Positions 50,574 to 54,523 of a stretch of DNA of 64,000 bases are shown here, piece after piece. The notes below the pieces were generated by a model. It was not told the origin of the DNA and ran no database searches. It worked only from the letters and a program-made list of their open reading frames with translations. Within the stretch, counting starts at the first letter, position 1; each line of letters opens with the position of its first letter. Source of the DNA: Burkholderia ubonensis subsp. mesacidophila (lineage in GTDB: Bacteria; Pseudomonadota; Gammaproteobacteria; Burkholderiales; Burkholderiaceae); assembly GCF_002097715.1 (NCBI RefSeq), contig NZ_CP020738.1:1984001-2048000 (forward strand). The letters are read 5' to 3'. A program made the translations under genes and the position numbers.

Positions 50574-50600
50574 CGCGCTTCGCCGGCGACGCGGCCGTGA

Positions 50601-50634
50601 ACGGGCCTTCGGCGGCATGCCGAAGGCCCGTTTT
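50601..50634 (+). terminator. Terminator after the S8 protease gene
   Basis: A 13-bp perfect stem (ACGGGCCTTCGGC with GCCGAAGGCCCGT) around GGCAT, followed by TTT. Confidence 0.9.
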
Positions 50635-50732
50635 GTTTCCGGCGCGCGCAGCGTGACCTAGAATCGATCTGAGCCGCCGTGCGTCGCGATTTCAGCGCCG
50701 GCGAAGCATTCGGGCCATTCGAAGGAGCGCCC

Positions 50733-51149
50733 ATGTCCCCAGCCAGCCATCATGCGGACACGCCGCTCGTCGCGGTCCGCCCCGACCGGAAGATCGACAC
50801 GGCTCAGGGCCTGCCCTATTTCGTCGGCATTTCCGCGCAAACCGCGGGCGCGACCGGGCTGTCGATGCACATCGTCGTGATCCCGCCCGGCGGACATGCG
50901 ACGCCGCATATCCACGTCGGCTTCGAGACCGCCGTCTACGTGCTCGAAGGACGCGTCGAAACGCACTATGGTCCGGGTCTGCGCCAGACGATCGTCACCG
51001 GGGCCGGCGAGTTCCTGTTCATTCCGCCCGGGGTCCCGCACCAGGCGTTCAACGTGAGCGACACGACCGCCGTGCGGGCACTCATCGCGCGCAACGCGCC
51101 CGGCGAGCACGAAACGGTGCAGCCTTACGATCCGGCCGACGATGCATGA
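50733..51149 (+). CDS. Small cupin-domain protein
   Basis: A 138-residue single cupin. The metal-ligand motif is PPGGHATPHIHVGFETAVYVLEGRVE (His, His and Glu), and the second motif is GEFLFIPPGVPHQAFN (His). Such proteins bind a metal and act as sugar or amino-acid isomerases, dioxygenases, or ligand sensors. The ATG at 50733 has GAAGGAG about 7 bases upstream. It stands alone between a subtilase terminator and the mgtA leader region. The exact reaction is unknown; the small size suggests a simple enzyme or storage/sensor protein. Confidence 0.85.
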   Translation: MSPASHHADTPLVAVRPDRKIDTAQGLPYFVGISAQTAGATGLSMHIVVIPPGGHATPHIHVGFETAVYVLEGRVETHYGPGLRQTIVTGAGEFLFIPPGVPHQAFNVSDTTAVRALIARNAPGEHETVQPYDPADDA

Positions 51150-51191
51150 CACGAGGCCGACGCGGACAGCGAAAAAAGTCTTACGAAAGGG

Positions 51192-51221
51192 TTGACGCTT
51201 CGCACTGCCGCCCTTTACCAT
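51192..51221 (+). promoter_or_regulatory. Predicted promoter of the mgtA leader
   Basis: TTGACG (51192-51197) and TACCAT (51216-51221) lie 18 bases apart, a fair sigma-70 pair. A start near 51228 would give a leader of about 530 bases before mgtA. Confidence 0.6.
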
Positions 51222-51250
51222 CGCCCCCGTCTAAACACATGGAGTGTTCT

Positions 51251-51304
51251 GTGAACACCGATGCGAGTTGTAGTTGGTGCTTGACCAACATGACTGCCGC
51301 CTGA
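51251..51304 (+). CDS. Candidate 17-residue leader peptide
   Basis: MNTDASCSWCLTNMTAA, from GTG at 51251 to TGA at 51302-51304. A GGAG ribosome site lies 6 bases upstream, which is rare for a random small frame. The peptide has two Cys and one Trp close together. It sits near the 5' end of the long mgtA leader and is followed by a 9-bp stem and then a T7 element, an arrangement typical of leader-peptide attenuators. It is too short for most gene finders. There is no direct proof of translation. Confidence 0.5.
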   Translation: MNTDASCSWCLTNMTAA

Positions 51305-51330
51305 GGAAATTGCGCAGAGCCTCGTCTTCT

Positions 51331-51357
51331 GCCGCATCCCGGGAAGCAGGATGCGGC
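51331..51357 (+). promoter_or_regulatory. Hairpin in the mgtA leader
   Basis: A perfect 9-bp stem, GCCGCATCC with GGATGCGGC around CGGGAAGCA, 26 bases after the stop of the 17-residue ORF. Confidence 0.6.
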
Positions 51358-51361
51358 GTCC

Positions 51362-51399
51362 TTCCGGCCTGACCGGCCAGATTCCCGCCGAATTTTTTT
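51362..51399 (+). terminator. Candidate attenuator terminator in the mgtA leader
   Basis: TTCCGGC and GCCGAA can pair (with one bulge) around an inner part containing CTG/CAG, and TTTTTTT (51393-51399) follows at once. It could end transcription early, 358 bases before mgtA, unless the leader ORF or Mg2+ changes the fold. Confidence 0.45.
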
Positions 51400-51556
51400 G
51401 AACGATACGCGACCGCTCGCGTGGTCGCGCACGCTCGTCCCGCGCGCAGCACTGCTGCGTGCGCATTCCGTTCGCGCGCCGTCCGGCGTGCGTGCCGTCA
51501 CGCACGCACCGCCATCGATCGCCCGTGCCGCTGACCGCCAACCGACAGGAGTGCAG

Positions 51557-51715
51557 ATGACTTCCGACGACAGTAGTCGATTACCGCTCGCCGGTGCGGC
51601 CATCCGCACGGCACGTCCGATCGCGCATCGCGCGCCGGCGAGCGGCCCCCCCTTCACCGATCAACAGCCGATCGCGCCTGACGCGACGCGGCGGGGAGCG
51701 CTCGTTCGTCGATGA
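51557..51715 (+). CDS. Candidate 52-residue leader ORF upstream of mgtA
   Basis: An ATG at 51557 with AGGAG 5 bases upstream opens a 52-codon frame with six Pro codons, including a Pro-Pro, and many Arg. Its stop at 51713-51715 lies in the loop part of a strong hairpin (51691-51729) just before the mgtA ribosome site. Ribosomes that finish this ORF would melt that hairpin. Pro-rich leader ORFs control mgtA in enteric bacteria by the same logic, but with other sequences. The peptide itself has no recognisable domain. Confidence 0.45.
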   Translation: MTSDDSSRLPLAGAAIRTARPIAHRAPASGPPFTDQQPIAPDATRRGALVRR

Positions 51716-51729
51716 CGTGCGCTCCCCGC
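51691..51729 (+). promoter_or_regulatory. Strong hairpin just before mgtA
   Basis: GCGGGGAGCGC (51691-51701) and GCGCTCCCCGC (51719-51729) form a perfect 11-bp GC stem; the loop can also pair as CGTC-GAT-GACG. It ends 28 bases before the mgtA start and 14 before its AAGGAG. It also contains the end of the 52-residue leader ORF. Confidence 0.7.
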
Positions 51730-51757
51730 GCGCCGCCTCGCGCGCAAGGAGCAACAC

Positions 51758-54523
51758 ATGACGCAACGCAACCCATCGCACAAGAAACAACGCGGTTTCA
51801 TCAACACCGGCGGCACCGGCCGGCAGGCCGAACCGCACATCATGCGCGCCGCGCAGGAAGCGGCCCGCCCGCTCGACGACACGCTGAAGTCGCTGCGCAC
51901 CAGCACCCGCGGCCTCACCTACGAGCAGGCCGCCGACCGCCTGCAACTCGACGGCCCGAACGAAATCGCGCACGACAAGCCGCCGCACTGGACCCGCCAG
52001 CTGCTGCTGTCGTTCCACAACCCCTTCGTCTACGTGCTGCTGGTGCTCGCCGCGATCAGCTTCTGCACCGACGTCTACTTCGCGGCGCCCGACGATCGCG
52101 ACTACGTCGGCATGACGATCCTGCTGACGATGGTGACGATCAGCGCGCTGCTGCGCTTCGTGCAGGAATTCCGCTCGCTGCGCGCCGCCGAGAAGCTGAA
52201 GGCGATGGTGCGCACGACCGCGACCGTGCAGCGCGCGGTGACCGACACCGCCGAGCCGGCGCGGCGCGAAGTGCCGATGCGCGAGGTGGTGGTCGGCGAC
52301 ATCGTGCATCTGTCGGCCGGCGACATGATCCCCGCCGACGTGCGCCTCCTCGCATCCCGCGACCTGTTCATCAGCCAGGCCGTGCTGACCGGCGAAGCGC
52401 TGCCGGTCGAGAAATACGACACGCTCGGCGCGGTCGCCGGCAAGTCCGCGAACACGCGCGCGGCCAGCGCGGCGAACGACGCATCGATGTCGCTGCTCGA
52501 TCTCGAGAACGTCTGCTTCATGGGCACCAACGTCGTGAGCGGCACCGCGACGGCCGTCGTCGTCGCGACCGGCGAAGACACCTACTTCGGGTCGCTCGCG
52601 CGCAACGTCGTCAGCCACAAGCGCATCGAGACCAGCTTCGACCGCGGCGTCGCGAGCGTGAGCTGGCTGCTGATCAAGTTCATGTTCGTGATGGTGCCGA
52701 TCGTCTTCCTGATCAACGGGTTGACCAAGGGCGACTGGCTGAGCGCCCTCACCTTCGCGCTCGCGGTGGCCGTCGGCCTGACGCCCGAAATGCTGCCGAT
52801 GATCGTCAGCGCGAACCTCGCGCGCGGCGCGGTCGCGATGGCGCGCCGCAAGGTCGTCGTCAAGCGGCTGAACTCCGTGCAGAACTTCGGCGCGATGGAC
52901 GTGCTCTGCACCGACAAGACCGGCACGCTCACGCAGGACAAGATCATCCTCGAACACCATCTCGACCTGTCCGGCCACAAGAACGAGGAAATCCTGCGGC
53001 TCGGCTGGCTGAACAGCTTCCACCAGAGCGGCCAGAAGAACCTGATCGACATCGCGATCGTCACGCGCGCGAACGAAATCGGCGAGCGCGTGAAGCCGCA
53101 GGGCTACAAGAAGATCGACGAACTGCCGTTCGACTTCGTGCGCCGCCGCCTGTCGGTTGTCGTCGAGGACACGCGCGGCACGCACACGCTGATCTGCAAG
53201 GGCGCCGTCGAGGAAATGCTGGCGGTATCGACCCACGTGCAGGATGAGGACGGCGTGCGGCCGCTCGACTTCGTCGCCCGCAAGCGGCTGCTCGAACAGG
53301 CGAATGCGTACAACGAGGACGGCTTCCGCGTGCTGGTGCTGGCCACCCGCGCGATCCCGCGCGGCGACGAGCGCGAGCAATACCGCACCGCCGACGAGCG
53401 CGACCTCGTCGTGCGCGGCTTCCTGACCTTCCTCGATCCGCCGAAGGAATCGGCCGCGCCCGCGCTCGCCGCGCTGCGCGAGAACGGCGTCGCCGTGAAG
53501 GTGCTGACCGGCGACAACCCGACCGTCACGATCAAGGTGTGCCGCCAGGTCGGCCTCGAACCCGGCAAGCCGGTGCTCGGCCCCGAAGTCGACGCGCTCG
53601 ACGACGCGACGCTCGCGCAGGTCGTCGAACGCACGACCGTGTTCGCGAAGCTCACGCCGCTGCAGAAGGCGCGCATCGTCACGGCGCTGCAGGCGAACGG
53701 CCACACCGTCGGCTTCCTCGGTGACGGCATCAACGACGCGCCCGCGCTGCGCGACGCCGACGTCGGCATTTCCGTCGACAGCGGCGCGGACATCGCGAAG
53801 GAAACCGCCGACATCATCCTGCTCGAGAAGAGCCTGATGGTGCTCGAGGAAGGCGTGATCAAGGGCCGCGAAACGTTCGGCAACATTCTCAAGTACCTGA
53901 ACATGACGGCCAGCTCGAACTTCGGCAACGTGTTCTCGGTGCTCGTCGCCAGCGCGTTCCTGCCGTGGGAGCCGATGCTCGCGACCCAGCTGCTGGTGCT
54001 GAACCTGATCTACGACACGTCGCAGATGCTGCTGCCGTGGGACAAGATGGACCCCGAGTTCCTGAAGAAGCCGCGCAAGTGGGAAGCCGGCAACATCCGC
54101 CGCTTCATGATGTGGGTCGGGCCGACGTCGTCGGTGTTCGACATCACCACGTACCTGCTGATGTGGACCGTGTTCGGCGCGGGCGCGCTGTATCACCTGC
54201 ATGGCGGCTCGGGCGGCCAGGTCGTGATGAATTCCGGCTGGTTCATCGAGAGCCTCGTGTCGCAGACGCTCGTCGTGCACCTGCTGCGCACGCAGAAGAT
54301 CCCGTTCCTGCAAAGCACGGCCGCGCTGCCGGTGCTGCTGTCGACGGTCACCGCGATCGCGATCGGCTGCTGGCTGCCGTTCTCGCCGTTCGCGGACTCG
54401 CTCGGCTTCATGCACCTGCCCGGCAGCTACTGGCTGTGGCTCGCGGCGACGATGGTCGGCTACATCCTGCTCGCGCAGATGGTCAAGACGATCTACGTGC
54501 GCCGCTACAAGCAGTGGTTCTGA
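51758..54523 (+). CDS. mgtA: Magnesium-translocating P-type ATPase
   Basis: A 921-residue P3B-type ATPase that imports Mg2+ using ATP. Motifs: TGEA (211-214) in the actuator domain, LTPEMLP (341-347) in membrane segment 4, DKTGT with phosphorylated Asp386, TGDNP and GDGINDAPAL in the P domain, and about ten membrane helices. A basic N-terminal stretch of about 30 residues precedes the core, as in MgtA. The ATG at 51758 has AAGGAG upstream. The roughly 530-base leader with two small ORFs suggests control by Mg2+ or translation. The gene is followed by a strong hairpin and then an outer-membrane-type protein gene. Confidence 0.95.
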   Translation: MTQRNPSHKKQRGFINTGGTGRQAEPHIMRAAQEAARPLDDTLKSLRTSTRGLTYEQAADRLQLDGPNEIAHDKPPHWTRQLLLSFHNPFVYVLLVLAAISFCTDVYFAAPDDRDYVGMTILLTMVTISALLRFVQEFRSLRAAEKLKAMVRTTATVQRAVTDTAEPARREVPMREVVVGDIVHLSAGDMIPADVRLLASRDLFISQAVLTGEALPVEKYDTLGAVAGKSANTRAASAANDASMSLLDLENVCFMGTNVVSGTATAVVVATGEDTYFGSLARNVVSHKRIETSFDRGVASVSWLLIKFMFVMVPIVFLINGLTKGDWLSALTFALAVAVGLTPEMLPMIVSANLARGAVAMARRKVVVKRLNSVQNFGAMDVLCTDKTGTLTQDKIILEHHLDLSGHKNEEILRLGWLNSFHQSGQKNLIDIAIVTRANEIGERVKPQGYKKIDELPFDFVRRRLSVVVEDTRGTHTLICKGAVEEMLAVSTHVQDEDGVRPLDFVARKRLLEQANAYNEDGFRVLVLATRAIPRGDEREQYRTADERDLVVRGFLTFLDPPKESAAPALAALRENGVAVKVLTGDNPTVTIKVCRQVGLEPGKPVLGPEVDALDDATLAQVVERTTVFAKLTPLQKARIVTALQANGHTVGFLGDGINDAPALRDADVGISVDSGADIAKETADIILLEKSLMVLEEGVIKGRETFGNILKYLNMTASSNFGNVFSVLVASAFLPWEPMLATQLLVLNLIYDTSQMLLPWDKMDPEFLKKPRKWEAGNIRRFMMWVGPTSSVFDITTYLLMWTVFGAGALYHLHGGSGGQVVMNSGWFIESLVSQTLVVHLLRTQKIPFLQSTAALPVLLSTVTAIAIGCWLPFSPFADSLGFMHLPGSYWLWLAATMVGYILLAQMVKTIYVRRYKQWF

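Follow-up and report, generated by a model that had tools for sequence, protein, structure and literature searches.

A putative pair of ribosome-operated RNA switches in the mgtA leader of Burkholderia

In attenuators of the trp type, the ribosome's position determines which of two pairings with a common strand is formed, and leaders of the mgtL type carry early proline and acidic codons with an EPDP-like motif. The enteric mgtL system is described as an upstream ORF (uORF) and two exclusive RNA folds upstream of mgtA, linked to Mg2+ (PMC11552253). Salmonella mgtQ, as outlined in sections of a further paper, combines Asp and Glu codons, alternative stem-loops and an occluded ribosome-binding site of an Mg2+ pump (PMC8092293). 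Among β-proteobacteria, the Bordetella copper uORF CruR is presented, in the portion concerned with it, as a uORF controlling transport genes (PMC9426467), and part of a study of Pseudomonas aeruginosa MgtA reports the use of the Salmonella leader as a sensor (PMC11218974). Neither mgtA nor magnesium nor a leader peptide was found in the main text of a start-site map of B. cenocepacia (PMC4603805, as far as that text goes), and no description of the leader analyzed here was found in the open-licence PMC literature.

We analyzed a 64,000-nt stretch of DNA from Burkholderia ubonensis subsp. mesacidophila (the window) that contains an mgtA leader. Like the mgtL leader, it places a uORF upstream of mgtA together with two exclusive folds; however, MgtL works with Pro and acidic codons and, in Salmonella, with Rho, whereas here each switch would have one uORF with a Ser-rich start. 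The two starts, VNTDASCS in ORF1 and M..DDSSR in ORF2, are acidic but lack the early Pro run of the mgtL type. ORF2 and the downstream pairing b:c share with mgtQ, as far as the cited sections describe it, acidic codons near the start, alternative stem-loops and a closable ribosome-binding site (PMC8092293); in contrast, mgtQ has 8 codons and lies between mgtC and mgtB, whereas ORF2 has 44-55 codons and a long internal hairpin, and no sequence relation between the two was seen by eye. The competing pairings S:T and T:T' have strand T in common, as in trp-type attenuators, although no run of one control codon and no conserved U-tract terminator is present here. CruR differs in being a DUF2946 protein with conserved CXXC and RAPP motifs, whereas ORF1 keeps no CXXC: a copper-type motif was considered and rejected, as the window has C-S-W-C but position 10 varies across leaders. 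No Rfam 15 model matched the window at its gathering score, in keeping with the earlier note's view that the leader is unrelated in sequence to known leaders, and at a relaxed threshold one miRNA model alone appeared (E 0.24 and 0.72, far under its gathering score). We consider it probable, at roughly 60%, that the mgtA leader consists of two ribosome-operated RNA switches in series, like those of enteric mgtL and mgtQ and unrelated to them in sequence.

Layout and conservation of the leader

All features lie on the forward (+) strand. The leader opens with a sigma-70-type promoter at 51192..51221 (-35 TTGACG at 51192-51197, an 18-nt spacer and TACCAT ending at 51221), the one promoter-like site found by a promoter scan of 50600-52000, against 0.2 expected in shuffles. 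ORF1 (VNTDASCSWCLTNMTAA; 51251..51304) starts with GTG and has 17 codons and a TGA, with GGAG at 51241-51244; an in-frame ATG at 51239 is a second possible start, by eye without a Shine-Dalgarno sequence. Hairpin P1 lies within ORF1 (51266..51295), and strand S (51293..51314), which holds the ORF1 stop codon, is the alternative partner of strand T (51332..51347), with hairpin P2 (51314..51332; 51314-51318 with 51328-51332) nested between them. Strand T forms the 5' arm and loop of hairpin P3 and can pair with S or with T' (51349..51356), the 3' arm. The first hairpin of the earlier note, P3, is present at 51332-51356, but its arms (CCGCATCC at 51332-51339 with GGATGCGG at 51349-51356) read as 8 bp rather than 9 bp. 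Directly downstream, a terminator-like GGCC hairpin with a T-run (P4, 51357..51399) is a predicted stem of the window and near relatives, in which seven T residues (T7, 51393-51399) stand 3' of a bulged stem.

ORF2 (MTSDDSSRLPLAG...APDATRRGALVRR; 51557..51715) starts with ATG at 51557 behind AGGAG at 51547-51551 and has 52 codons, 7 of them for Pro by manual count. It contains hairpin P5 (51584..51645; 51584-51594 with 51633-51645), and its end pairs with the post-stop spacer in a GC hairpin, a:b (51690..51729; 51690-51701 with 51717-51729), whose loop holds the ORF2 stop TGA (51713-51715). Spacer b can also pair with region c (51716..51763 for b and c together), which comprises the mgtA Shine-Dalgarno sequence AAGGAGC (51746-51752) and the start codon. 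The gene itself (51758..54523, ATG at 51758) encodes a Mg2+ P-type ATPase of type IIIB (TIGR01524, 1274 bits, and NF011702, above cut-off), and no second Mg2+ P-type ATPase above cut-off was found in the host genome. Fold z-scores against shuffles were -2.5 for 51228-51405 and -3.7 for 51228-51790.

With a 611-base leader query, matches at E 0.001 were obtained in 62 of 65 genomes of the genus; by manual count, the match was near full-length in 59 genomes and in pieces only in 3, and 3 had none. From 89 leaders taken, with L002, L003 and L152 excluded, 69 distinct ones were obtained, including second copies (L141, L143-L150) and one divergent locus (L151). In all 69, the promoter spacing TTGAC-N18-TTAMCAT is identical, ORF1 retains its GTG start and DAS core, and the ORF2 frame is intact over 44-55 codons with a DDSS-like start. 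Each feature listed in the earlier note is present in the window, at the position given there or a few bases away. Asp4 and Ala5 of ORF1 are fixed in 60/60 rows of alignment A3 amid synonymous changes, and Asp conservation at alignment positions 4 and 5 of ORF2 is 1.00 and 0.99 (67 distinct ORF2 sequences). The codon-position entropy means of ORF2 (0.50, 0.56 and 0.54) give no clean coding pattern, which suggests a mixture of RNA and coding constraint. A protein search with ORF2 returned 21 entries, the named ones being hypothetical or uncharacterized proteins, all from Burkholderia, with the closest match 85% identical (B. ubonensis).

Competing pairings in the ORF1 block

When 349 genomes of the family were searched with the first covariance model of the ORF1 block, built from 25 Burkholderia rows, 82 gave a match. 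They fall into 3 of 25 genera: 50 belong to the window's genus, 30 to g11 (Pandoraea included) and 2 to g20. Nucleotide conservation of the block is very strong. In alignment A3 (60 rows), 92% of cells are paired and 10 pairs show both-side changes (86 cells), and the covariation score of P1-P3 was 0.223, compared with 0.132 for shuffles and at most 0.088 for slid partners; by one of the five measures, further pair types, the alignment did not exceed shuffles (306/500). The double changes are located in P1 (7/12 pairs, with one outer pair mostly unpaired) and P2 (3/5 pairs) and none in P3, of which 99.5% of cells are paired, yet 0/7 pairs changed on both sides. Conservation in relatives, which the earlier note had named as the check on its proposal, was thus found for stems and ORFs, with compensatory changes in P1 and P2.

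Wider models matched 8/250 and 18/399 genomes of the order, the own genome counted. The own genome alone was matched by model R2 in 299 genomes of the phylum and by model R3 in 185 of the class, samples that overlap and in part come from the same family and order. Among the best 80 of 591 named mgtA loci, R3 matched 29, namely 20/20 from Burkholderia, 8/8 from Pandoraea and one from Iodobacter, and none of the 51 outside these three genera; among 39 mgtA loci searched with R2, Iodobacter alone fell below E 0.01, and the enteric mgtA loci examined were not matched by the ORF1-block models. Judged from sequence, the ORF1 block is a structural RNA class that extends beyond Burkholderia into Pandoraea, Iodobacter and other families of the order.

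We compared the pairing energies of S, T and T' at 26 loci, or at 17 with one locus per lineage, from a set (A5) of 40 hand-chosen loci; A5 left out L224, L233 and L234 (E 7.9e-4 to 9.2e-4, no matching ORF by eye) and kept L232, where mgtA lies 1.6 kb further on. The own pairing of S:T averaged -14.58 kcal/mol versus -9.71 when strands were swapped between loci (0/3000; 26 loci), and that of T:T' -18.45 versus -15.29 (0/3000; 26 loci); with one locus per lineage, each test still gave 0/3000. The S:T pairing is part of no search model, and its controls were flat (reversed S, 711/3000; the region before the ORF, 1261/3000; the P2 loop, 1584/3000). Twenty mono-shuffled S sets gave z between -2.8 and 0.9, compared with -8.2 for the real S:T, and coevolution of S with T' was slight (92/3000). 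Because P3 was part of the model used to find and align the rows, the T:T' test lacks independence from that model. By eye, S and T match along 11 bases in L230, and L218 and L220 differ by both-side changes at two S:T positions. According to these comparisons, two mutually exclusive folds share strand T, and both coevolve.

The ORF1 stop lies inside strand S in 38/40 loci as scored, despite peptides of 13 to 22 residues; of the two exceptions, L226 had an incorrect start codon assigned in the scoring, and in L232 the ORF ends slightly beyond S. When a ribosome was masked on the window leader, the predicted fold contained S:T with the P-site at codons 3-12 and P3 (6-8 of 8 pairs) with the P-site at codons 13-18. 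The unmasked leader had its minimum with S:T at -64.2 kcal/mol, against -62.0 with P3 forced; this small predicted gap of 2.2 kcal/mol fits a switch but proves none.

Three further pairings were considered and not adopted. One between GATGCG in ORF1 and CGCATC in strand T was suggestive in Burkholderia but is broken by GAC in L185 and L188; a GAGG/CCTC pairing was 94.9% paired but without double changes; and a pseudoknot between the P3 loop and a strand 3' of P4 fits some Burkholderia by eye, but not L141.

ORF2, related uORFs and linked genes

Hairpin P5, which follows soon after the DDSSR codons, gave a self energy of -43.7 versus -41.0 when swapped (16/5000; 12 representatives) and is weak in the second copies L141 and L143. 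The GC hairpin a:b, noted earlier at 51691-51729 with the ORF2 stop in its loop, is stable in 12/12 representatives (-31 to -46 kcal/mol) but has no coevolution signal of its own (2800/5000; 12 representatives), a result that is uninformative. For b:c, the self energy was -17.58 versus -15.50 when swapped (0/5000; 12 representatives of the 69), while reversed b gave 1380/5000 and five shuffled b sets 62 to 1559 of 2000. Spacer b is thus common to a:b and b:c, with coevolution in b:c only; in the window itself, b:c is weak (-11.6 versus -42.2 for a:b). These energies indicate that the mgtA ribosome-binding site can pair with an upstream strand. This spacer pairing with the mgtA Shine-Dalgarno sequence, the competition of S:T with T:T', and the spread past Burkholderia and past mgtA go beyond what had been noted before.

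Among the best 80 of 591 mgtA loci, 45 carry, 200-255 nt upstream of the matched mgtA start, a uORF that begins behind a Shine-Dalgarno sequence and has in-frame AGY-AGY (Ser-Ser) no more than eight codons from its start, versus 0.8 expected; the count covers related species, so the loci are not independent. They comprise 28/28 loci of Burkholderia and Pandoraea, where the uORF is ORF2, and 17/52 others, all labelled Pseudomonas. In several of the latter, a hairpin can be read directly 3' of the uORF. Any homology of the Pseudomonas uORF to ORF2 is putative. AGT-AGT was seen shortly 5' of a hairpin in the Pseudomonas mgtA uORFs of L066, L067, L069, L080, L087, L097, L105 and L109. A Pseudomonas ORF, VPTGASAR, was rejected as a relative of ORF1 after a reading of the DNA showed no likeness. 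We also observed a conserved small protein of ~80 residues upstream of mgtA in Pseudomonas, enterics and others, with an MNF- or MTF-like start, ..RV..NWRV or similar, and TG.L; it lies ~530-645 nt before the matched mgtA start in L068, L070, L076, L079, L083, L084, L087, L090, L093, L098-L100, L107 and L112, and the one example tested had no Pfam match.

At 10 of the 14 kept order-level loci (L218-L223 and L225-L232, the own genome and G012 apart), mgtA follows the element on the same strand at a distance of no more than 2 kb: those of G593, G497, G423, G919, G385, G927, G902, G409, G376 and G477, and not those of G957, G458, G457 and G512. In g11, the same holds within 2 kb for 27/30 genomes, and the remaining three (G132, G110 and G270) have no MgtA above cut-off. 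An OprB porin is the first gene at L222, L223, L227 and L231, and is followed by mgtA at three loci (G423, G385 and G376); in G512, mgtA is not on the contig. Small ORFs lie between the element and mgtA in L218 and L219 and by eye resemble that of L232, which has a weak MgtC_SapB_C likeness (PF21770, E 2.8e-4, under the Pfam cut-off); that of L218 has no Pfam match. As a side observation, small ORFs like the MgtC C-terminal domain were seen by eye in L218, L219, L220, L225, L232, L186 and L193, with mgtA behind some and not others.

Five genomes with the element before other genes (G015, G027, G248, G304 and G457) lacked an MgtA match at E 1e-100. In four of them (L239, L238, L241 and L221/L237), the element is followed by a two-domain ABC permease; an ATPase was also observed in L237 and L238, and OprB in L239. 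No ABC permease was found in 6.3 kb of G304 (L240). Where no strong MgtA match exists, the ABC transporter headed by the element is a candidate substitute Mg2+ importer. The loci placing the element before an ABC permease in genomes MgtA-less at E 1e-100 correspond to L190/L238, L189/L239, L184/L241 and L221/L237. A short frame, MK....S(R/Q)F.L.S.LYF, was seen after the ORF1-type element in L183, L184, L189 and L190, with an ABC permease then in the last three and none found after L183.

Nine Burkholderia genomes (L141, L143-L150) carry the complete leader twice, with promoter, ORF1, switch and ORF2, and in 9/9 cases the second copy is not beside mgtA. Downstream of one extended second copy (L242, leader at 1-530) come a short ORF and genes for a 2OG-Fe(II) oxygenase-like protein, PhoU_div and PHO4. 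The element is therefore not confined to mgtA, but mgtA is its most frequent partner. Since in some members the element is followed by an ABC transporter, by the oxygenase-PhoU_div-PHO4 group or by small ORFs that have no mgtA behind them, the signal may be something other than Mg2+.

Proposed mechanism and alternative readings

Conservation and coevolution establish, at the level of sequence, both ORFs, P1, P2 and the pairings S:T, T:T' and b:c, and from these we propose the following mechanism. In switch 1, if S is free when T is made, S:T would form and T' would be left free; a ribosome covering S (codons ~13 to the stop) would instead let T pair with T' as P3, and the fold present as polymerase passes would set whether transcription continues. 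In switch 2, pairing of b with the ORF2 end (a:b) would leave the mgtA ribosome-binding site open, and pairing with that site (b:c) would close it, provided that the two exclude each other in the cell. A ribosome reaching the end of ORF2 would open a:b and close mgtA, whereas drop-off early in ORF2 would keep a:b and leave mgtA open. The conserved ORF starts, in which Asp is followed by Ser-Ser or Ser-Cys and these in turn by a stable hairpin, may be the place where elongation is sensitive and ribosomes drop off or pause, and low Mg2+ is the most likely condition to which it would respond. Against this two-switch reading, ORF1 has one acidic residue only. The predicted sense of switch 1, in which completion of ORF1 would prevent T' from joining the terminator-like stem, runs counter to that of switch 2, unless low Mg2+ holds ribosomes at the ORF1 stop codon. 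The earlier suggestion of a leader sensing Mg2+ or translation state is partly supported: the ORFs and the ORF1-block stems are conserved and linked genes point to Mg2+, which would be a putative signal.

A classical intrinsic attenuator, in which P3 is the antiterminator, the bulged stem with T7 the terminator, ORF1 translation makes the choice and ORF2 is secondary, would agree with the minimum-energy fold of 51228-51405, which holds S:T and a stem before UUUUUUU, and with the shift to P3 under a ribosome on codons 13-18. We nevertheless regard it as unlikely. T' showed no coevolution with a downstream strand across the class (2371/5000), and the T-run varies: many leaders have it shortened or interrupted, and the Pandoraea-type and second-copy rows inspected lack it; moreover, a mechanical terminator scan did not list the T7 element, its 3 hits lying elsewhere (1.0 expected). 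The T7 element with a bulged stem described in the earlier note is present and terminator-like in the window and near relatives, but its role as an intrinsic terminator is not supported by sequence across the class, and in the absence of downstream coevolution of T' our explanation does not build on it. Stretches 3' of P4 read as C-rich in some other members, which would suit Rho, and termination in switch 1 may be Rho-dependent or intrinsic.

A somewhat stronger competitor, though still improbable in our judgment, is that the ORFs sense a cue other than Mg2+, such as another metal, general translation stress or an aminoacyl-tRNA (through AGU serine codons). Such codons are found repeatedly in ORF2, in the ORF1 of relatives and in the Pseudomonas mgtA uORFs, and some operons carry other genes; however, mgtA is the commonest linked gene, and the copper-type CXXC is not conserved, with position 10 varying. 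Direct binding of a metabolite or Mg2+ by P1-P3, with the ORFs mattering little, could account for the very strong nucleotide conservation of the ORF1 block and for several invariant or near-invariant third codon positions at the ORF2 start. We give such a riboswitch little credence, since Asp4 and Ala5 are fixed amid synonymous changes, ORF1 is kept at variable length with its stop nearly always in S, the ORF2 frame survives length changes, and no Rfam match was found. Least plausible is a passive conserved leader whose ORFs and folds have no regulatory role: GC-rich DNA readily folds and holds ORFs, and the a:b hairpin lacks a coevolution signal, but two exclusive pairings coevolve with flat controls, and the element occurs across families of the order, while 299 phylum genomes (R2) and 185 class genomes (R3) gave the own genome only.

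We tentatively raise, as a possibility that we doubt somewhat, a broader element, so far undescribed, of β- and γ-proteobacteria: a uORF start with Asp and AGU-AGU (Ser-Ser) directly before a hairpin. Such an element would be mobile between operons, with an ABC transporter (with OprB) as the substitute Mg2+ importer in MgtA-less genomes, and would read cytosolic Mg2+ through early elongation. Pseudomonas mgtA leaders would have a single copy of it, other families of the order a single copy combined with the S/T/T' switch, and Burkholderia and Pandoraea two copies arranged in series.

The analysis yields a structural RNA class unmatched in Rfam 15, for which a covariance model is available and the informative mutants are evident. 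The oprB-mgtA operons, the ABC transporter, the oxygenase-PhoU_div-PHO4 group and the small MgtC_C-like proteins are candidates for one Mg2+ regulon. If the two-switch reading is true, Mg2+ import control would have a stackable two-step design, and bacteria other than the enterics would also read translation to control Mg2+ import, a strategy either reached separately or shared across a great distance.
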